A stretch of 64,000 bases of DNA, taken from the NCBI GenBank assembly GCA_021792635.1, contig JAJYUH010000002.1:305548-369547 (forward strand). The letters are read 5' to 3'. The notes below the pieces were generated by a model. It was not told where the DNA came from. It saw only the letters and a program-made list of their open reading frames with translations, and did not search any database. This document shows, in pieces, positions 40,746 to 50,828 of this stretch. The stretch comes from Natronospirales bacterium. Lineage in GTDB: Bacteria > Pseudomonadota > Gammaproteobacteria > Natronospirales > REEB76. The stretch's first letter is position 1. Every line of letters starts with the position of its first letter. The position numbers were made by a program, and so were the translations under genes.

Positions 40746-41846
40746 ATGAAGCCCCGTTCGGTTCAGGATGGGGAACAAGGAACCCGGCGGTTACGGGTTT
40801 TTACAGAGGGTGATCGGCTGTATGCCGCCATGCTGGGGGCGATTCGCCGCGCCCGACGTTCCATAAAGCTGGAAAGTTATATCTTTGCCGATGACGAGAT
40901 TGGACGACAGTTCGCCGCTGCATTGGGTGAACGTGCCCGTGCCGGCGTCCAGGTGCTTGTGCATATCGATGCGGCCGGTTCCCTGTTCTGGGGGTCACGG
41001 CATCTGGAACAGCTATTGAGACGTGAGGGCATACGCCTGCGCTGGTTCCACCGCTGGAGCTGGCGCGCGCCGTGGCGTTACAACCGGCGCAATCATCGCA
41101 AACTCCTGGTGGTGGATGGCCGCACGGGGTTCCTCGGCGGCTTCAACATCCACCGGGAAAATTCCCGGGCTGTATACGGCGAAGCCCGCTGGCGCGATAC
41201 CCACGTGCAAGTGGGCGGAGCGCTGGCGCGCGCTCTGCAGACTTTATTCGATGCTTTCTGGCGCGGCCGCCGCCGCCGCTATCCTTTCCTCCAGACACCG
41301 GATGGTAACGTGCTTATCACCAATCATGTGCGGCGGGGCCGGCTGTTCCTGCGCAACCTGTTTGCTGCTCGTTTTGCCACCGCCCGGGGACACATTTGGC
41401 TGACCACACCATACTTTGTTCCCGACCGTCGCACTCAACGCGGTCTGGTGGCCGCAGCACGTCGCGGCGTGGATGTGCGCGTGCTGGTGCCGCGCAAGAA
41501 CAATGAACACTTGACCCAGTGGGCGGGGCAGGCCGCCTATGCGGCTCTGCTTGCGGCAGGCGTGAAAATCTACGAATATTTTCCACGCATGCTGCACGCC
41601 AAAACCATGGTGGTTGACGGCAGTTGGAGCAGCGTGGGTACGGCCAACATTGATTATCGGAGCTTCTTCCTCAATTACGAAATCAATTTGGCGGGCACTG
41701 ACCGGGCGCTGGCTGCCGCCCTGGAGGCGGAATTCCAGGATGACCTGCGGCAATCGGAGCAGATAGCGTCTGCCCGTTGGGCACGGCGCGGTTGGCTTGC
41801 GCGGATATTGGAATTTATCGGCTGGCTGGCACGGCGCTGGTTGTGA
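40746..41846 (+). CDS. clsB: Cardiolipin synthase, ClsB-type phospholipase D
   Basis: A 366-residue member of the phospholipase D superfamily with two HKD motifs: NHRKLLVVDGRTGFLGGFN and LHAKTMVVDGSWSSVGTANI. The N-terminus TEGDRLYAAMLGAIRRARRS and the C-terminal helices match bacterial cardiolipin synthases without N-terminal membrane anchors, as ClsB. The neighbouring divergent EEP gene supports the ClsB assignment. The predicted reaction joins phosphatidylglycerol with another phospholipid. Start ATG at 40746. Confidence 0.9.
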   Translation: MKPRSVQDGEQGTRRLRVFTEGDRLYAAMLGAIRRARRSIKLESYIFADDEIGRQFAAALGERARAGVQVLVHIDAAGSLFWGSRHLEQLLRREGIRLRWFHRWSWRAPWRYNRRNHRKLLVVDGRTGFLGGFNIHRENSRAVYGEARWRDTHVQVGGALARALQTLFDAFWRGRRRRYPFLQTPDGNVLITNHVRRGRLFLRNLFAARFATARGHIWLTTPYFVPDRRTQRGLVAAARRGVDVRVLVPRKNNEHLTQWAGQAAYAALLAAGVKIYEYFPRMLHAKTMVVDGSWSSVGTANIDYRSFFLNYEINLAGTDRALAAALEAEFQDDLRQSEQIASARWARRGWLARILEFIGWLARRWL

Positions 41847-41916
41847 GGAAGGGACCGGCTGCGGGTGCCCCGGGTCATCTTCAAGGCGGGACATCACTGG
41901 CGAGGAGGGAGATTCC

Positions 41917-42612
41917 ATGAATGCGGTTGAACTGTACTATTGGCCGACACCGAATGGCCAGAAAATCACCATTTTCCTCGAGGAGACGGCTGTCCCCTAT
42001 ACGCTGCATCCGGTGGATATCGGCAAGGGTGATCAGTTCAGTCCGGAGTTTCTGCGCATCAGCCCCAACAACAAAATGCCGGCACTGGTGGATCCCGCGG
42101 GGCCGGATGGCAAACCCATAGCGCTGTTCGAATCGGGGGCCATTCTGCTGTATCTCGCGGAGAAGACCGGCCGCTTCCTGCCACGGGATCCGTTCAATCG
42201 CTATCAGGTGATCCAATGGCTCATGTTCCAGATGAGCGGGGTAGGACCGATGCTGGGCCAGGCGCATCATTTCCGCGGTTACGCGCCGGAGAAAATCGAA
42301 TATGCCATCAATCGTTACACCAAGGAAGCCGGGCGCCTGTACAGCGTGATGGACACGCAATTGGCGGTCCGGGACTACATCGCCGGCGAGTATTCCATTG
42401 CGGACATGGCCATCTATCCCTGGATCGTGCCGTATGAGCGTCAGGGCCAAGCTTTGGAAGATTATCCGCGCCTCCAGCGCTGGTTCGGGCGCCTCGCTGT
42501 CCGTCCAGCGGTGCAGCGCGGTATGGCACAGCTCGCGGAATTGCGCACTTCGGCGATGACCGACAAAGCCAGGGAAACCCTCTTCGGGAACACCCAGTAT
42601 CAGAGGCGCTGA
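41917..42612 (+). CDS. Glutathione S-transferase, YfcG/YghU type
   Basis: A 231-residue GST. N-terminal thioredoxin-like domain: LYYWPTPNGQKITIFLEE, ISPNNKMPALVDP and the glutathione-contacting FESGAILLYLAEKTGRFLP; C-terminal helical domain: QWLMFQMSGVGPMLGQAHHF and YIAGEYSIADMAIYPWI. These match the disulfide-reductase-type YfcG/YghU group. GGAGG lies 8 bp before the ATG at 41917. The 3' end overlaps tail-to-tail with the next gene by 13 bp. Confidence 0.92.
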   Translation: MNAVELYYWPTPNGQKITIFLEETAVPYTLHPVDIGKGDQFSPEFLRISPNNKMPALVDPAGPDGKPIALFESGAILLYLAEKTGRFLPRDPFNRYQVIQWLMFQMSGVGPMLGQAHHFRGYAPEKIEYAINRYTKEAGRLYSVMDTQLAVRDYIAGEYSIADMAIYPWIVPYERQGQALEDYPRLQRWFGRLAVRPAVQRGMAQLAELRTSAMTDKARETLFGNTQYQRR

Positions 42613-43250
42613 GCGCCGGGCCGTCGCGGCATCGCCTCCGTAATGAGGCGCCAGCGATGATAGTCCGCGGGCGTATCCACATCCCAAAGCGTGGCCAGCG
42701 TATGGCAACGCCAGCCGAGTTGTGCGATGCGAGTGCGCGTCTCCGCCAGGACCAGCGAGGTTCCCCAGGGGATATTGCGGAACAGCAGCTCGCTGGCATG
42801 CTTCAGTCCCAGCAACACAAAACCGCCGTCCTCGGCCGGGCCCAGGGTGACATCGCAGTCCCGCGCCAATGCCGCTGCCGCTTCTTCAAGGTAGTAGGGC
42901 GGCATGGTCGGGCAGTCAGCGCCCATGAGAATGACCGCATCCGCGGCCATCAGTGCTCCGGAGGCGCAGGTGTGCAGACGTGTCCCGAGGTCGCCCGGCG
43001 GCTGCGCCGTCAACCGCACCGGGTATTTCTGCATGATCTTCCCGAAAAAAGGATGCGACTCATCCGGGTCACACCACAGCTCCACGGGCCCGACGGCTGC
43101 ATCCAGCGCGGTGCTGACGGCCTGAATGACCAGCTCTTCCTGGAGATGGGCGGTATCGGTCTCTCCCAGGTGGGGGATGAGCCGTGTCTTGGCAAAGCCC
43201 GGAATAGGTGCCTTGCAAAGTAATGCGACCGCGCAGGGAGTGCGCTGCAT
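42600..43250 (-). CDS. DUF2064-type glycosyltransferase (TIGR04282 family)
   Basis: A 216-residue GT-A-fold protein: CAVALLCKAPIPGFAKTRLI at the N-terminus, LMGADCPTMPP (nucleotide/metal site), VTLGPAEDGGFVLLGLK and the C-terminal DVDTPADY. This family is named for arsenosugar biosynthesis but is widespread. Start ATG at 43250, chosen because the frame further upstream overlaps the next gene. It ends the minus-strand run with the ArsS-like gene; its paired family member is two genes upstream. Confidence 0.88.
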   Translation of the reverse strand: MQRTPCAVALLCKAPIPGFAKTRLIPHLGETDTAHLQEELVIQAVSTALDAAVGPVELWCDPDESHPFFGKIMQKYPVRLTAQPPGDLGTRLHTCASGALMAADAVILMGADCPTMPPYYLEEAAAALARDCDVTLGPAEDGGFVLLGLKHASELLFRNIPWGTSLVLAETRTRIAQLGWRCHTLATLWDVDTPADYHRWRLITEAMPRRPGAQRL

Positions 43251-43254
43251 GAAC

Positions 43255-44031
43255 CTAGGACCGCCGAAACGGCAGCAGCAGCAGCGCTGCAAATCCGGGG
43301 TGGTCGCCAACACGACCGGGAAGGCCTACCGGCATTACCGCTTCCGGCGCGCGGGAGCGTCCGAGGTAGGTTCTGAACAGTCTGTCCCACCAGGAGAAAT
43401 TGAAGCCAAAATTATGGTTGAGTTCACCGGAAACCGCCGAATGATGCACGCGATGCATGCCGGGTGTTACGATGAACAGGCGCAGCAGGCGTTCCAGAAA
43501 ACCTGGCAGGCGCAGATTGGCGTGATTAAAAACCGACGAGACATTGAGTACCACCTCGAAAACCGCCACCGCCAAGGGCATGATACCCAATAGAAATATG
43601 GCGGCACCCTTGATGAGGGTGGAAACAATGATTTCGAGGGGATGAAAGCGCACACCGGTGGTCACATCCAGGCTTGGATCGGTGTGATGCACACGATGCA
43701 GCCGCCATAGCACGGGAATGTAATGGAAAGCCATATGTTGCCCGTAAATGAGCAGATCCAGCAGCACTACGCCGACGATGACCGTCAAAATGCCGGGCAG
43801 CGAAACAAGGTGAAGCAGTCCGAGGCCATGACGTCGAACCAGTATGGCCACCTCGACCAAAGAAATGGGAACGGCAAGCCGCGTGCCGATGTTACCCAAA
43901 ACAATCATCCCCAGATTGACGCTCTTATGCCGCCAACCCGGCTCCGGGCGCCATGGCCACCGGTATTCCAGTGCACCGAAGAGCAGCAGTGCACCCGCGA
44001 AACACAGCAGACGTACCAGTGTGGCGTTCAC
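43255..44031 (-). CDS. Membrane fatty-acid hydroxylase/sterol desaturase family protein
   Basis: A 258-residue polytopic diiron enzyme. The histidine clusters are seen in order: HMAFH, HRVHH, then FNHANLRLP and HRVHHS, with about four hydrophobic helices. Family members hydroxylate or desaturate lipid chains in the membrane. It starts at GTG 44031 with GAGG upstream, and lies 4 bp from the following glycosyltransferase. A lipid substrate for the neighbouring sugar enzymes is an inference. Confidence 0.88.
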   Translation of the reverse strand: MNATLVRLLCFAGALLLFGALEYRWPWRPEPGWRHKSVNLGMIVLGNIGTRLAVPISLVEVAILVRRHGLGLLHLVSLPGILTVIVGVVLLDLLIYGQHMAFHYIPVLWRLHRVHHTDPSLDVTTGVRFHPLEIIVSTLIKGAAIFLLGIMPLAVAVFEVVLNVSSVFNHANLRLPGFLERLLRLFIVTPGMHRVHHSAVSGELNHNFGFNFSWWDRLFRTYLGRSRAPEAVMPVGLPGRVGDHPGFAALLLLPFRRS

Positions 44032-44040
44032 TGCGGCACC

Positions 44041-44724
44041 TCAACGGGAACGTGAATCGTAGCGGGCCGCCACGCGCAAGCTGTCCGCGCCGAAGACAAA
44101 CACCAAGCGCAACCACCACATAAGCAGTATAGTGCGTAACATGCCATGCTGCTCCCACCGGCGGCTGGAGGAGAGGACGGGCAGACGGAGGCGGCGTGAG
44201 GCAGCATTTTTTCTGAGCAGCTTGCATAATGTCACATCTTCCATCAGCGCCAGGTCCGGATAGCCGCCTATCCGCAGAAATACGTCACGCCTTACAAAAA
44301 TCGCCTGATCGCCGGTGGCAATTCGTGTGAGATACGCACGCCAGCTCATGCAATGTTCGATGACGCGCAGCAGGAAGTGCTGCCCTGAAAGCCGCACATC
44401 GAACCAGCCCCAAGCCGCTCCATTCGCCACGCTGGCAACAATCTGGTCGGTCGCCTGCGGCGGCAGCAGCGTATCGGCATGCAGAAACAGCAGGACATCG
44501 CCCTGGGCCAGATATGCGCCGGCGTTCATCTGTCTGGCACGCCCGCGTGCCGTGACAATTACCCGGTCCACCAGCGGCTGCGCGATTTCCGCTGTGCCGT
44601 CGCTACTGCCGCCGTCCACCAGGATCACCTCGTGTCCCGCTTGGCGCAGCGGCTGCAATGCAGCAAGCGTGGTGGAGATAATCGCCGACTCCTCCATTGC
44701 GGGAATGACGATTGAGATGCGCAT
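44041..44724 (-). CDS. Family 2 glycosyltransferase (TIGR04283 family)
   Basis: A 227-residue GT2 enzyme: ISIVIPAMEESAIISTTLAA, VILVDGGSSDGT, ARGRARQMNAGAYLAQGDVL, FLHADTLLP and the C-terminal segment GGYPDLALMEDVTLCKLLRK. A weakly hydrophobic C-terminus is present. The start at 44724 is 2 bp after the ArsS-like stop. It belongs with the DUF2064 protein in a set named for arsenosugar assembly in other organisms. Confidence 0.88.
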   Translation of the reverse strand: MRISIVIPAMEESAIISTTLAALQPLRQAGHEVILVDGGSSDGTAEIAQPLVDRVIVTARGRARQMNAGAYLAQGDVLLFLHADTLLPPQATDQIVASVANGAAWGWFDVRLSGQHFLLRVIEHCMSWRAYLTRIATGDQAIFVRRDVFLRIGGYPDLALMEDVTLCKLLRKNAASRRLRLPVLSSSRRWEQHGMLRTILLMWWLRLVFVFGADSLRVAARYDSRSR

Positions 44725-44726
44725 AG

Positions 44727-45689
44727 TCAACTGAGCGCCCCGCCACAACTGCTGCCCTGTCCGGCGGTGCAGCCATAGCAGTGATCCCCCACGGCAATGG
44801 CTGTACCTTTCAATTCCGTTTGCAGCAAGTCACGCAGATGGGGGCGCGACTTGCCGTCGAGGCGCAGCGGCAACGCCAGCATCTGGTTGAAATCGCAGTC
44901 ATAGACATAACCGCGCCAATCCACGCTGATGAGATGGCGGCACATGACATTCGGCAGATTATGGGATTGGTGTGCCTGCTTCAGAGTGTCCAGATAGGCT
45001 TGAAGCCTGCCTTTTGATACCAGCATGCTGCCGAACCGGCCGATGGGCATGTTGGCAAGCACAAAAAGATCATTGAAAGATATGCCCCAGCGTTCTTTCA
45101 GTTCACGGGTGTAATCCTCCTTGAGCCCGGCTTGCGGCGCCGGCAGATAAGCATCCAGGGGATTGTAGACCAGGTTCAGTGTGAGTCCCGTGCCGGGCAG
45201 GGCATAGCCGAGAGCATTCAAACGCTTGAGCGCGCGGATGCTGGCGTGATAAGTGCCCTTGCCGCGCTGGCCATCCACGTTTTCCTCGGTGTAGCAGGGC
45301 AGGGAGGCTACCACTTCCACGCGTTCGGCGGCGAGAAATTCCGCGAGGTCTGCGTAACCCGGTTCTTCCAGTATGGTCAGGTTGCAGCGGTCCATGATGC
45401 GTTTCCCCATGGATCGTGCGCTGTGTACAAGCCGCCGGAAGTGCGCATTCATTTCCGGGGCGCCGCCGGTAATGTCCAAGGTTTCGATATTCGGTCGTCC
45501 GAGATATTCGATCACCACATCAATCGTTTCTGCGTCCATATCCTCGGTGCGATGCGGACCGGCGCTTACGTGGCAGTGCACACAGGTTAGATTGCAGCGA
45601 TAACCGAGATTGACCTGCAGGGTATGTACATGACTCCGATGCAGGCAAGGGAAACCGGTGTTTTTGAGCAAGGGAGCGACAGCGTGCAC
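44727..45689 (-). CDS. arsS: ArsS-like radical SAM protein
   Basis: A 320-residue radical SAM enzyme. The cluster motif CxxxCxxC is in NLGYRCNLTCVHCHVSAGP; GGAPEMNAHFRRLV is the SAM-binding glycine motif, and a C-terminal cysteine-rich tail (YDCDFNQM, HCYGCTAGQGSSCGG) could hold auxiliary clusters. Family members (ArsS) are linked to arsenosugar synthesis, joining a ribosyl group to dimethylarsenite. No ArsM methyltransferase is near, so the substrate may not be arsenic. Start is GTG at 45689, with GAGG upstream. Confidence 0.88.
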   Translation of the reverse strand: MHAVAPLLKNTGFPCLHRSHVHTLQVNLGYRCNLTCVHCHVSAGPHRTEDMDAETIDVVIEYLGRPNIETLDITGGAPEMNAHFRRLVHSARSMGKRIMDRCNLTILEEPGYADLAEFLAAERVEVVASLPCYTEENVDGQRGKGTYHASIRALKRLNALGYALPGTGLTLNLVYNPLDAYLPAPQAGLKEDYTRELKERWGISFNDLFVLANMPIGRFGSMLVSKGRLQAYLDTLKQAHQSHNLPNVMCRHLISVDWRGYVYDCDFNQMLALPLRLDGKSRPHLRDLLQTELKGTAIAVGDHCYGCTAGQGSSCGGALS

Positions 45690-45692
45690 GGT

Positions 45693-46418
45693 TCAAACCT
45701 CATGGTGACGGCTGGCACGCCAGCGGCGTACGGCAACCGGAAGTAATGCGAACAGTCCGAGCAACATCAGGGCGGCAATCAGCCCCGGAGAGATGAGCCC
45801 ATGCAAGGTATGGATGCCGGCGAGTTGTTCGCCGAGATTCGCGTAGATGAAGCTGCCCGGGATGATGCCGATAAAAGTTCCGAGCACGAATTGCCGCATG
45901 CGAATAGCCGTAAAAGCGCTTGTCAAGTTTACCAGCCAGAATGGAAACAAGGGTACTAGACGCACAAACAGGAGATAGTTGAAGGCATTGCGTTCGAAAC
46001 CATGCAATAATTTTGCTGCCTGTGGTTTGTTCTCCAGCCGGGTCCGCACTGCGGTACCGATGAGGTAGCGTGCGATCAGAAAAATAAGACTGGCTCCCAG
46101 TGTGGCGAATATCACGATGGTGAAGCCCCCCACCCAACGGCCGAATAAAAAACCGATCAGCAGCGACAATACGGTTCCGCCGGGAATACTGATCGCCGTC
46201 ATGAACGCATATATCAGCCCTGCAACAAGCACGGCAGCAAAATAATGACGCTGAACCAGCATATGCAGCGCCCCCCGTTGTGCCAGCAGGTAACTCAGAT
46301 TCAGCCAATGTGCACCGCCCACCAGATAAAATACCGCTACGATCGCGAGGATGGTTGCAAGAATGAGCAGGCGTGGTGCGGTCATGCGCAGCCGCTTGAC
46401 GGATTCACACATGCGCAC
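45693..46418 (-). CDS. TVP38/TMEM64-family inner-membrane protein
   Basis: A 241-residue polytopic protein of the DedA/SNARE-associated superfamily. Features are IPGGTVLSLLIGFLFGRWVG, RYLIGTAVRTRLENKP and a conserved FWLVNLTSAFTAIRMRQFVL. Homologues carry out lipid scrambling or transport and often sit beside flavin disulfide oxidoreductases such as mercuric-reductase-like proteins, as here. The start GTG at 46418 overlaps the upstream oxidoreductase by 14 bp. Confidence 0.9.
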   Translation of the reverse strand: MRMCESVKRLRMTAPRLLILATILAIVAVFYLVGGAHWLNLSYLLAQRGALHMLVQRHYFAAVLVAGLIYAFMTAISIPGGTVLSLLIGFLFGRWVGGFTIVIFATLGASLIFLIARYLIGTAVRTRLENKPQAAKLLHGFERNAFNYLLFVRLVPLFPFWLVNLTSAFTAIRMRQFVLGTFIGIIPGSFIYANLGEQLAGIHTLHGLISPGLIAALMLLGLFALLPVAVRRWRASRHHEV

Positions 46419-47853
46419 CCCGCAGACGGAACAGGAGTTGCAGCCAGCGGCGCGTCGCAGGTGTCAGCCGCCGCTTCATGCGCTCATCGGCCACGAAACG
46501 GTTGATCTGCGCCAAGGCCGGATACAGGTGTATGCAGGCCGAGATATCCCGGGCCTTCAGGCGTTGGCTCAAGCCCAAGGCAAACTCATGAATGAGTTCG
46601 CCCGCCTGCGCACCTACGATTGCCGCCCCCAGCAAGCGTCCGCGCCGGTCCGTGAGGAGCTTGGCGAAACCCTGGGTTTGGCCGTCGGTCTGGGCACGGT
46701 CGGCGCGTGCAAACGGCACCCGGTATACTTCATAAACTATGCCACGCTCCCGCGCCTGCCGCTCTGACAAACCCACCCTTGCCACTTCCGGGTCCGTGAA
46801 GGTGCACCGGGGGATGACCCGGCTCGTTCGGCTGCGCATATGAAAGAGCGCATTTCTGAGAACAATACCGGCCTGGTGTTCAGCCATGTGGGTGAAGCGG
46901 CAGGGGCCGATGACATCACCGCAGGCATATATGTGAGGCTGACTGGTACGCAGGCGATCATCTACCGCCAGTTGGCCATTGCGGACGACAACGCCCGCCT
47001 GTTCCAACCCCAACTCTTCCAGTGCCGGTATGCGTCCGACTGCTGTCAGCAGATGTGTGGCAGAAAATTCCCGCAGTTGTCCGCGGGCATCCCGATAACT
47101 GACGACGAGATCATGCTCCCGCTGTGTGATACGCTCCGCGTTTACGCCGGTAAGCAGCCGAATACCATCGTATCGCAGTGCATCCCCCAGTGCCTGTGCC
47201 ACATCTGCGTCTTCCCGGGGCAGGATCTGTAACCCGGACTCCAGAATACTGACGCGACTGCCCAGCCGGGAAAATGCCTGGGCAAGTTCCACCCCGATGG
47301 GTCCGCCGCCGACAATTGCCAGATCCGGCATGGAATCGCGCAGCGAGAAAATGTTTTCGTTGGTGAAGTAGCGCACATGCTCCAGCCCCGGAATGGGCGG
47401 GATAGCGGGGCGACTGCCGGTGGCAATGACGAAGCGGCGCGCGCGGATCTCGCAGCCACCGGCCTGAACGCTATGGGCGCCCGTGAACCGGCCCGGCGCC
47501 TCGATAACTTCGACACCCAGACTGCGCAAGTGCTCCGGACTGTCTTGCGGCGCGATGGTAGCGATGACCTGTGCGACATGCCCCATTACGCGCCCTATTT
47601 CCGGCGGAGCCAGTTGCGCCGACAGGCCGCAGTCCTGTGCCCGCCGAATGAGGGCGGCCATGCGGGCGGAGTGCAGCAGCGTCTTGCTGGGCACGCAGCC
47701 GGTATACAGGCATTCGCCTCCCAGCCGCTGCTTTTCAACCAGCACAGTGCGTGCACCCAAGGCAGCCGCCCCCGCCGCGGTTACCAGGCCCGCGGCACCG
47801 CCTCCCAGAATGCAGATGTCATAGTCCGCTGCGCGCATACGCATTGCCGCCAT
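46405..47853 (-). CDS. FAD-dependent pyridine nucleotide-disulfide oxidoreductase
   Basis: A 482-residue class I flavin disulfide reductase (mercuric-reductase-like). FAD fold YDICILGGGAAGLVTAAGAA, redox-active cysteines in GGECLYTGCVPSKTLLHSA, NAD fold AIVGGGPIGVELAQAFSRL, and C-terminal dimerization with PRCTFTDPEVARVGLS. The C-terminal vicinal cysteines of true mercuric reductase are missing, so mercury reduction is unlikely. Start ATG at 47853; in-frame ATGs at 47844 and 47838 are also possible. The substrate may be a small disulfide or a quinone. Confidence 0.9.
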   Translation of the reverse strand: MAAMRMRAADYDICILGGGAAGLVTAAGAAALGARTVLVEKQRLGGECLYTGCVPSKTLLHSARMAALIRRAQDCGLSAQLAPPEIGRVMGHVAQVIATIAPQDSPEHLRSLGVEVIEAPGRFTGAHSVQAGGCEIRARRFVIATGSRPAIPPIPGLEHVRYFTNENIFSLRDSMPDLAIVGGGPIGVELAQAFSRLGSRVSILESGLQILPREDADVAQALGDALRYDGIRLLTGVNAERITQREHDLVVSYRDARGQLREFSATHLLTAVGRIPALEELGLEQAGVVVRNGQLAVDDRLRTSQPHIYACGDVIGPCRFTHMAEHQAGIVLRNALFHMRSRTSRVIPRCTFTDPEVARVGLSERQARERGIVYEVYRVPFARADRAQTDGQTQGFAKLLTDRRGRLLGAAIVGAQAGELIHEFALGLSQRLKARDISACIHLYPALAQINRFVADERMKRRLTPATRRWLQLLFRLRGAHV

Positions 47854-47914
47854 GTCCAGCCATGAAATCCGCCTTGTTGCATTCCAGCAGCAGACCGTAC
47901 TTCCCGCTGTTTTA

Positions 47915-48706
47915 TTACTGTCTGTGGTATTGCAGGCCAAGTCGTTTGTAGAGAGCGGCACGGAAGACACGGATACGTTGTGCATTCCTGCCCACATCGC
48001 TTGTGCCTATGCGCGATTCGGAGCGCATATCCAGACGGGCACCTGTGCCATTCGGTACGATACGGATTACCACGTCATCCTTGAAACCGAACCAGAATGT
48101 GGTGGCGGTGGCTTCGATGATGCCGGTGGCGGGATCATTGGACACCAGCTTCCAGCCCCGGGCCTCTACGGTTTGCAGTGCAGCGGCGTATACCTGTGAC
48201 AGCGGCAGGGAGAACAGCATGGGCTGGATATCCGGGTAAGCCTTTTCCTGCAGGGCCGCAATCTTGGGGCCGCCATATACCGTCGAATTGGCCGCTCCCT
48301 TTCGGAGTGCCAGAATATCCGCCTGGAATTGCGGTGGGTTGGCCGTGTCGGTGGTGATGTCATGGATGGCGGGCACCGACTCGGCTTTCTTGAGCCACAT
48401 ATAGGGAACGCCCCAGGCGATCACACCCAGTGTGATACCGACAATGATACGGATGAAATATTCCCGCCGCCGCGCCGCCAGCAGCAGAATCAGGCCGATA
48501 ACGGTGATCAGCACGGCGAGCATACCGCCGTATGCGCCGTAGGTGATCATTCCGAAGGCGCCTCCGAGACCGACAATCCCAAGCCGGTACAGGGGGCCCG
48601 GCAACAGTACCGCGAGAATGGCCAGGATGCCGATGCTCATGCCCAACAGGGCAATACGCGGCGCCCAAAGAGCAAGGGGTAAATCGTTGCGGGACGGCTG
48701 GCTCAT
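47915..48706 (-). CDS. DUF1499-domain membrane protein
   Basis: A 263-residue protein with three hydrophobic segments in the N-terminal half (about 15-36, 42-72, 78-98) and a C-terminal DUF1499 domain with NPPQFQADILALRKGAANST, AALQTVEARGWKLVSNDPAT, GIIEATATTFWFGFKDDVVI and SRIGTSDVGRNAQRIRVF. Start ATG at 48706 has GGAG 8 bp upstream. It is the first gene of the co-directional run down to 42600, 61 bp before the oxidoreductase. The role of DUF1499 is not established. Confidence 0.85.
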   Translation of the reverse strand: MSQPSRNDLPLALWAPRIALLGMSIGILAILAVLLPGPLYRLGIVGLGGAFGMITYGAYGGMLAVLITVIGLILLLAARRREYFIRIIVGITLGVIAWGVPYMWLKKAESVPAIHDITTDTANPPQFQADILALRKGAANSTVYGGPKIAALQEKAYPDIQPMLFSLPLSQVYAAALQTVEARGWKLVSNDPATGIIEATATTFWFGFKDDVVIRIVPNGTGARLDMRSESRIGTSDVGRNAQRIRVFRAALYKRLGLQYHRQ

Positions 48707-49286: not shown

Positions 49287-50828
49287 ATGTCCCACCCAAG
49301 CGCCCCCGCGGGGCCGGATTTCCGCAGCGGCGTTGATGCCGGCAGCCTCAAAACGGATCAGCCGCTGCTCGGTCATGTGGGCCAGGACGAAGTGGTGCTG
49401 GTACGGCACGCGGGTGAAATCTATGCCGTAGGCGCAACCTGCACCCATTATCATGGCCCGCTTGTCAAAGGCTTGGTGACGGGAGGTGCCATCCGCTGCC
49501 CTTGGCACCATGCCTGTTTCAGCCTGCGCAATGGTGAGGTACTCGCCCCACCCGCCCTAAATCCCATTCCCTGCTGGCGGATCGAGCAGCGGGGAGGCAA
49601 GGTTTACGTACGCGAGAAGCTCCCACCCCTTGTGCACAGCAGCCGGTCTCCCATGCGTCAGGCAGAACCACCGGCATCCGTACTGATCGTCGGCGGCGGG
49701 GCCGCGGGCGAGGCAGCAGCAGCGACATTGCGCTTCTGCGATTATCGCGGTCCTGTGACGCTGGTAAGCGCCGAAGACAATCTGCCCTGTGACCGGCCCA
49801 ATCTGTCCAAGGACTACCTGGCCGGTACGGCACCGGAGGAGTGGCTGCCATTGCGTTCCGAGAGCTTTTACCGGGAAAAACGCATCACACTGCTGCGCAA
49901 TCTGCGCGCCACTTCCATTGATGTGGTACAGCGCAAACTGCGTCTCGAAGATGGCCGTGAACTCGGCTATGCCGCACTGCTGCTGGCCACCGGTGCCGAA
50001 CCAATCCGCCTGACGCTGCCGGGTGCAGACCTGCCGCATGTCCATTATCTGCGCTCGGTGTCCGACAGCCGTTCCATTATCGCGGCTATAGAACAAGGTG
50101 CACGTCGTGCGGTCGTCATCGGTGCGAGCTTCATCGGTCTGGAAGTGGCCGCTTCGCTGCGCACACGCGGCGCGGAAGTGCAGGTGGTGGCGCCGGAAGC
50201 GCGCCCCATGGAACGTATCTTCGGTCCCCGTCTCGGCGATTTCATTCGTGCGTTGCATGAATCGAAAGGCGTGGTGTTTCATCTCGGCCAGAGCGTAACT
50301 GCCATCCGGCCGGAACAGGTGATGCTCAAGGATGGAGGGCAACTGGCAGCGGATTTGGTGGTAGTGGGTGTCGGCGTGCGGCCGCTTACCGCACTGGCGG
50401 AACAGGCGGGTCTGAATATTGACCGTGGTGTGCTCGTGAATGAGTACCTGGAGACCAGTGTGCCGGGAATCTATGCCGCGGGAGATATTGCGCGCTGGCC
50501 GGATGCGATGAGCGGCCTGCCCATCCGTGTGGAACACTGGGCGGTGGCGCAGCATCAGGGCCAGGTGGCAGCACGCAATATACTCGGTTACCGCGAGCGT
50601 TACACCGCCGTACCGTTTTTCTGGAGCCAGCATTACGACATCAGTCTCAACTACGTGGGGCATGCGGAGCAGTGGGACAGTGTTGACATGCAGGGTGATC
50701 CGGAAAAATCTGATTGCGCCTTCACCTACAAGCAGGCCGGGCGTGTGCTCGCCTTGGCGACCATATTCCGTGATCGCCACAGCCTGGAAATGGAAGTACG
50801 CATGGAACAACTGGCAGCGGACGCATAA
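49287..50828 (+). CDS. Rieske-domain FAD-dependent oxidoreductase, AIF-like
   Basis: A 513-residue fusion. An N-terminal Rieske 2Fe-2S domain (about 15-115) has the two ligand boxes CTHYHGPL and CPWHHACFSL. A pyridine nucleotide-disulfide oxidoreductase core follows: VLIVGGGAAGEAAAATLRFC, DRPNLSKDYLAG, VVIGASFIGLEVAASLRTRG and the C-terminal VNEYLETSVPGIYAAGDIAR. This resembles AIFM3/nitroredoxin reductase-type proteins that pass electrons from NAD(P)H. GAGG precedes the ATG by about 8 bp. It is monocistronic; the partner is unknown. Confidence 0.92.
   Translation: MSHPSAPAGPDFRSGVDAGSLKTDQPLLGHVGQDEVVLVRHAGEIYAVGATCTHYHGPLVKGLVTGGAIRCPWHHACFSLRNGEVLAPPALNPIPCWRIEQRGGKVYVREKLPPLVHSSRSPMRQAEPPASVLIVGGGAAGEAAAATLRFCDYRGPVTLVSAEDNLPCDRPNLSKDYLAGTAPEEWLPLRSESFYREKRITLLRNLRATSIDVVQRKLRLEDGRELGYAALLLATGAEPIRLTLPGADLPHVHYLRSVSDSRSIIAAIEQGARRAVVIGASFIGLEVAASLRTRGAEVQVVAPEARPMERIFGPRLGDFIRALHESKGVVFHLGQSVTAIRPEQVMLKDGGQLAADLVVVGVGVRPLTALAEQAGLNIDRGVLVNEYLETSVPGIYAAGDIARWPDAMSGLPIRVEHWAVAQHQGQVAARNILGYRERYTAVPFFWSQHYDISLNYVGHAEQWDSVDMQGDPEKSDCAFTYKQAGRVLALATIFRDRHSLEMEVRMEQLAADA

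Follow-up and report, generated by a model that had tools for sequence, protein, structure and literature searches.

A seven-gene arsS run in a Natronospirales genome, probably one part of a split arsenosugar pathway with arsM on another contig

The seven-gene run and the arsM gene of the same genome

The window analysed here, a stretch of 64,000 nucleotides from contig JAJYUH010000002.1 of a Natronospirales bacterium (assembly GCA_021792635.1), contains a run of seven nearly contiguous genes at positions 42600-48706. All seven lie on the minus strand with small overlaps or gaps. In the order of transcription they encode a DUF1499 protein, a flavin adenine dinucleotide (FAD) disulfide oxidoreductase, a TVP38/VTT protein, the arsenosugar radical S-adenosylmethionine (SAM) enzyme ArsS, a TIGR04283 family-2 glycosyltransferase (GT2), an FA_hydroxylase membrane enzyme and a TIGR04282 protein. 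The contiguity and strand of the run are as an earlier sequence-only reading had described them, and the family names that it gave also stand; ArsS, TIGR04283 and TIGR04282 exceeded their NCBIfam cut-offs, and FA_hydroxylase, VTT/TVP38, Pyr_redox_2 and DUF1499 exceeded those of Pfam. The run contains no arsM gene. However, an arsM is present on contig 18 of the same genome, and the run and this gene probably belong to one split arsenosugar pathway.

The sequence-only reading had taken the methyltransferase to be missing, which does not hold beyond the window. A search of the same genome (G000; G and L numbers denote the genomes and loci of our comparison) identified a full-length ArsM on contig 18 (G000:C18:116310-117020). 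The protein has 352 amino acids, of which residues 6-345 align with the arsenite methyltransferase of PDB entry 5evj at 351 bits. It carries the motifs ACC, SNCVINLSPDK and ECLGGAL as well as a C-terminal CC. The cysteine-bearing motifs, which we presume to be catalytic, are common to ArsM proteins found beside arsS elsewhere. As NCBIfam cut-offs were not reached, the protein was named from solved structures and motifs. On the basis of the match to 5evj and the cysteine motifs, we rejected the view that this genome has no ArsM. The gene is the last of an operon with the order arsI/cadI-arsC-ACR3-arsC-arsM (L047:3658-7366). The ACR3 and ArsI/CadI-family proteins of this operon exceeded NCBIfam cut-offs, and the two ArsC-like proteins were under theirs (57 and 63 bits, cut-off 174). 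A convergent MFS transporter gene follows the operon.

The radical SAM motif of the ArsS encoded in the window, CX3CX2C, corresponds to C32-x3-C36-x2-C39, and the C-terminal DUF3641 domain (PF12345, 178.1 bits) carries C250, C265, C304, C307 and C315. These cysteine positions are conserved in five aligned ArsS proteins. That this enzyme adenosylates dimethylarsenite is a prediction well supported by homology.

Mechanically called open reading frames (ORFs) sometimes started too early, and probable starts were read from the translations and from the match with a second genome of the genus (G008). The CofC-like TIGR04282 protein probably starts at about 43250, GT2 at about 44724, the flavoenzyme at about 47844 and the DUF1499 protein at 48706 (Table 1). 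The flavoenzyme matched NF004991 (475.6 bits, under the cut-off of 620) and reached no cut-off among the 25 NCBIfam families listed for it. In a scan for promoters and terminators, the promoter count was nowhere above chance.

Table 1. Genes of the run and its flanks, in window coordinates
Feature	Position	Strand	Remarks
TIGR04282/DUF2064 "arsenosugar glycosyltransferase"	42600..43250	-	CofC-like nucleotidyltransferase by model; mechanical ORF to 43313
FA_hydroxylase (PF04116) membrane diiron enzyme	43255..44031	-	weakly OlsE-like
TIGR04283 family-2 glycosyltransferase (GT2)	44041..44724	-	NCBIfam 262.9 bits, cut-off 182; mechanical ORF to 44748
arsS, arsenosugar radical SAM enzyme, Cys form	44727..45689	-	TIGR04167 446.2 bits, cut-off 300; PF12345, PF04055
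TVP38/VTT-domain membrane protein	45693..46418	-	PF09335 85.9 bits, cut-off 33.9
FAD disulfide oxidoreductase, MerA/lipoamide-dehydrogenase-like	46405..47844	-	PF07992, PF02852; motif GGECLYTGCVPSK; mechanical ORF to 47997
DUF1499 membrane protein	47915..48706	-	PF07386 87.7 bits, cut-off 22.6; mechanical ORF to 48742
Glutathione-S-transferase-like flank, outside system	41797..42612	+	68% identity to counterpart at syntenic G006 locus
Rieske-FAD oxidoreductase flank, divergent, outside system	49287..50828	+	65% identity across 245 residues held at G006 locus

Distribution of arsS, arsM and the hydroxylase

Among the 11 genomes of the genus, arsS, arsM and the hydroxylase gene were each found in exactly G000, G006 and G008. 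Hence arsM was present in 3/3 genomes with arsS and in 0/8 without. Completeness of the eight genomes devoid of all three genes ranges from 52 to 98%, and G006 is 76% complete. The layout in G008 is split as in the genome of the window. In G006, a locus syntenic with the window has the same flanks together with the DUF1499, TVP38, GT2, hydroxylase and CofC-like genes at 60-69% identity. This locus is without arsS and without the flavoenzyme gene, and another G006 contig carries flavoenzyme-arsS-arsM; the ArsS encoded there occupies a remote position in the ArsS tree. In the simplest interpretation, the two G006 modules would complete one pathway. An ArsM 66% identical to that of the window genome is encoded within the ArsS cluster of G012, a member of the same order. 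Six of the seven run genes (not DUF1499) and arsM form one operon in G020, with the order flavoenzyme-TVP38-arsS-arsM-GT2-hydroxylase-CofC.

Profile searches of 370 genomes of the class Gammaproteobacteria detected ArsS in 193 and ArsM in 161, plus two by a broader profile. Both proteins were found in 141 genomes, ArsS only in 52, ArsM only in 22 and neither in 155 (odds ratio 19), such that 141/193 genomes with arsS had arsM compared to 22/177 without arsS. Misses are possible in these counts because scoring for ArsM, the hydroxylase and ArsS took in only the six best candidates of each genome (seven for the desaturase control described below). There were also 37 weak ArsM matches (25/55 genomes), from which only those of G283 and G063 were accepted, both of which lie beside arsS and are truncated by contig ends; the remaining matches, at 74 bits or less, were set aside as other methyltransferases without individual testing. 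The sole correction for kinship was a comparison restricted to one genome per family, in which the family of some genomes was read from genome numbering. As arsM is present in the window genome and co-occurs with arsS in the genus and the class, the earlier argument from the absence of arsM in the run to a non-arsenosugar product does not survive the refuting condition that had been named along with it, and the run is best read as part of a split arsenosugar pathway.

The surroundings of arsS were compared in 151 neighbourhoods, which represent 148 of the 193 class genomes with arsS as well as G006, G012 and G017. Many are cut by contig ends. ArsM was encoded within the stretch in 51 cases; in 62 it was found in another part of the genome, and in 38 it was not found. 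GT2 was present in 96 neighbourhoods and TIGR04282 in 95 (both together in 89), followed by the flavoenzyme (44), TVP38 (42), the hydroxylase (33) and DUF1499 (6). Clustering of conserved neighbours around arsS returned mostly shared chromosomal context. A further 80 named neighbourhoods, with a bias towards Burkholderiales and other close matches, brought the total to 231; as seven of the 80 repeat others, at most 224 of these are different.

The hydroxylase scored 95.5 bits against PF04116 (gathering score 31), and its histidine motifs HX3H, HX2HH and HX2HH are invariant in 12 aligned rows. It reached no cut-off among the NCBIfam families listed for it, including that of OlsE (NF052566, 80.9 bits versus 475). 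Its model weakly resembles yeast Scs7p, and no solved structure was retrieved with the hydroxylase profile. With a threshold of E 1e-95, the hydroxylase was detected in 159 of the 370 class genomes, and 143 of these also had ArsS. Both genes were present in 143 genomes, the hydroxylase only in 16, arsS only in 50 and neither in 161, yielding an odds ratio of 29. Restricting the comparison to one genome per family (142 genomes; 59/5/21/57 in the same order) gave an odds ratio of 32, and relaxing the hydroxylase threshold to E 1e-40 gave 28. A draw of 172 genomes from the phylum yielded 61/12/21/78 and an odds ratio of 19, although beyond the class this draw was dominated by one family (36/68 arsS genomes). 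The sequence-only reading had included the membrane lipid-type hydroxylase in the system, and both its presence in 33/151 ArsS neighbourhoods and its genome-wide tracking of ArsS bear this out. Near arsS, it was paired with TVP38 in 24 of these 33 neighbourhoods.

Other genes were also seen around arsS and the hydroxylase. An ArsR-type regulator fused to a rhodanese domain is divergent from hydroxylase-TVP38 units, sometimes together with a DsrE-family gene (L126, L134, L143, L149, L151, L159, L183 and others). In 10 of the 231 neighbourhoods, a PHO4 phosphate transporter-like gene lies on the same strand as arsS and in line with it (L045, L108, L118, L135, L148, L150, L227, L274, L334 and L389; one representative checked). 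Sodium:solute symporter-family genes are in line with arsS in L324, L325, L342, L357, L361 and L366 (representative checked by Pfam). The gene after the symporter in L357 has no Pfam match, and relatives of it occur in L316 and L374. DUF547 genes (L107, L244 and L374) and DUF3179 genes (L113, L127, L128, L129, L135, L144, L148 and L168) were found near arsS as well; for each of these two families, a single representative was checked with Pfam.

A predicted route to arsenosugars and its rivals

The major organic forms of arsenic in marine food webs include arsenosugars and their lipids. The biochemistry of ArsS was reportedly treated by Cheng et al. in 2021, and we know of no enzymes assigned to the arsenosugar steps that follow the first carbon-arsenic bonds made by ArsM and ArsS. 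A literature search, with subscription papers mostly outside it, returned no paper on post-ArsS steps, including the combinations arsenolipid and fatty acid hydroxylase, arsM and TVP38 or sterol desaturase, and arsenosugar and methylthioadenosine.

The run and the contig 18 arsM together probably turn arsenite into dimethylarsinoyl ribose, for which glycerol or a membrane lipid is the predicted acceptor. ArsM would methylate As(III) to dimethylarsenite, and ArsS would then put a 5'-deoxyadenosyl group on the arsenic; these two steps are well supported by homology. An enzyme of the methylthioadenosine (MTA) phosphorylase type, whose gene is part of the operon in some relatives only, would strip adenine by phosphorolysis and leave an arsenic-bearing ribose 1-phosphate. 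The CofC-like TIGR04282 protein would join a nucleotide to this arsenoribose phosphate, and the TIGR04283 glycosyltransferase would pass the sugar to an acceptor. Phosphorolysis, nucleotide attachment and sugar transfer form a coherent prediction. The least certain step is the last, in which the hydroxylase and TVP38 may modify and move the lipid acceptor or product. The flavoenzyme would keep thiols or arsenic reduced.

The candidates for the steps after ArsS were drawn from genes that accompany it. MTA phosphorylase genes lie inside the ArsS operon in 5/231 neighbourhoods, among them a Microbulbifer locus (L380), and 5/5 of the encoded proteins exceed the TIGR01694 cut-off. With a single phosphorylase gene placed at random in each genome of 3 Mb, about 0.3 cases inside the operon would be expected. 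The TIGR04282 protein of the run exceeded its family cut-off (176.8 bits versus 134) and was modelled with a phosphoglycerate/phospholactate guanylyltransferase-like fold. As it scored 33.9 bits against a cut-off of 105 for CofC (TIGR03552), it is CofC-like by fold alone. The modelled fold led us to predict a nucleotidyltransferase role for this protein rather than that of a glycosyltransferase. Together, the hydroxylase, the CofC-like TIGR04282 protein and MTA phosphorylase suggest that ArsS is followed by phosphorolysis, nucleotide activation and transfer, perhaps to a lipid. The product may be lipid-linked with TVP38 as the lipid mover, in keeping with the frequent pairing of TVP38 and the hydroxylase. 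The scheme is least certain at this lipid end point, which rests on the two being membrane proteins that travel with ArsS. We suggest only tentatively that Gammaproteobacteria widely carry an arsenolipid pathway, in which ArsM and ArsS would produce 5'-deoxy-5'-dimethylarsinoyl-adenosine, the phosphorylase would convert it to arsenoribose-1-phosphate, TIGR04282 would form nucleoside diphosphate (NDP)-arsenoribose, and TIGR04283 would transfer the sugar to a membrane lipid, which would be finished by a dedicated diiron hydroxylase together with the TVP38 lipid mover.

Several observations weigh against a split arsenosugar pathway of this kind. The ArsM of the window genome was under every NCBIfam cut-off tried (NF008823, 186.1 bits versus 263), including NF038099, the NCBI model for arsenosugar ArsM (107.4 bits versus 400); the latter was also missed by four ArsM proteins from ArsS clusters (112-131 bits). 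ArsM was not detected in 52/193 arsS genomes of the class. The hydroxylase was near arsS in only 33/151 and 2/80 named neighbourhoods, and at E 1e-95 it was absent from 50/193 arsS genomes and present in 16 genomes (of 159) without arsS. DUF1499 was near arsS in only 6/151 neighbourhoods. Linkage to the phosphorylase gene is likewise rare (5/231), with none near arsS in the window.

A possible, although not probable, alternative is that the arsenosugar pathway is real and that the hydroxylase, TVP38 and DUF1499 are general membrane-maintenance bystanders, tied to arsS by shared ecology or ArsR-type regulation. The 16 genomes with the hydroxylase but without arsS are consistent with this explanation, as is the finding that hydroxylase and TVP38 genes often begin a unit divergent from an ArsR-rhodanese regulator. 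Moreover, 10 of 20 hydroxylase genes away from arsS had no profiled family nearby (TVP38 was near 7 and an ArsR-rhodanese regulator near 6). However, a control family of membrane diiron enzymes with similar prevalence, fatty acid desaturase PF00487 (195/370), showed no link to arsS (109/86/84/91, odds ratio 1.37, p 0.14), with a threshold of E 1e-15 for the control and E 1e-95 for the hydroxylase. The hydroxylase link persisted in families without ArsM (12/3/12/48, odds ratio 16), in the genus and in the phylum draw, and G006 keeps its GT2, hydroxylase and CofC genes together with arsS elsewhere.

We consider it unlikely that ArsS adenosylates another acceptor to give a non-arsenic product, with the contig 18 ars operon as an independent detoxification unit that includes arsM. 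The company of this arsM (ACR3, arsC and an arsI/cadI-type gene) is a usual resistance setting, and the 52 arsS genomes without detected ArsM include G059 and G185, both single contigs that are 99-100% complete. From these 52 genomes it follows that arsS can persist without arsM. Genuine cases of arsS without detectable arsM occur in other genomes (38/151 neighbourhoods, among them those of G013, G015, G017, G059 and G185), but the genome of the window is not one of them. On the ArsS tree, however, absence of ArsM amounted to 26 changes for 38 rows, compared to 28-38 (mean 34) in 200 shuffles. A separate clade of arsM-less ArsS with another substrate was rejected, as absence, although partly clustered, was spread over many groups of the tree; given this scatter, no single other-substrate clade stands out. 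A test of independent pairs on the same tree, relating the hydroxylase near arsS to ArsM, had few informative pairs. In addition, arsM accompanies arsS in all three genus genomes with arsS and lies near it in 51/151 stretches. Finally, it is unlikely that ArsS uses methylated arsenic taken up from neighbours and that the cell's own ArsM has no role beyond volatilisation or resistance. The many arsS genomes without detectable arsM and the location of the two genes on different contigs in the window genome speak for this proposal; against it stand the complete agreement between arsS and arsM across the genus, an arsM adjoining arsS in G006 and a shared cluster in G012.

Significance and relation to known systems

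The comparisons made here provide testable, named candidates for the later steps, namely the phosphorylase encoded in ArsS operons, the nucleotidyltransferase-like TIGR04282 protein and the hydroxylase that tracks ArsS. The frequency of ArsS in the class (193/370) takes it far beyond the usually studied cyanobacteria and algae. New here are the tight, controlled genome-wide link between ArsS and the hydroxylase, the guanylyltransferase-like fold modelled for TIGR04282 and the MTA phosphorylase genes inside some ArsS operons. The apparent case of ArsS without ArsM in the window genome has been accounted for.

In other organisms, arsenosugar synthesis begins with steps catalysed by ArsM and ArsS (PMC12159101, PMC8552651). 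Both the function of SsArsM and SsArsS of Synechocystis sp. PCC 6803 and arsenic adenosylation by a radical SAM enzyme have been described (PMC8552651, PMC12159101). As in this cyanobacterial pathway, an ArsS over the family cut-off and an ArsM homologue are encoded in one genome. In contrast, arsM here lies on a different contig from arsS, the ArsM is of another type (107 of 400 bits on the arsenosugar-ArsM model), and the run adds a membrane hydroxylase, TVP38, a flavoenzyme and DUF1499.

NCBIfam describes TIGR04282 and TIGR04283 as arsenosugar biosynthesis glycosyltransferases, and both members of the run are over cut-off. Unlike its label, the TIGR04282 member was modelled as guanylyltransferase-like. 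With respect to OlsE and the wider PF04116 family, which includes yeast Scs7p, the hydroxylase is far under the OlsE equivalog, and 12/12 aligned relatives match OlsE as their sole NCBIfam family; it differs from OlsE in tracking ArsS genome-wide. The ArsQML arsinothricin cluster of Burkholderia gladioli likewise pairs ArsM with a radical SAM enzyme (PMC8552651). In that cluster the radical SAM enzyme is ArsL, whereas the enzyme of the run belongs to the ArsS family and is encoded together with sugar-transfer genes.

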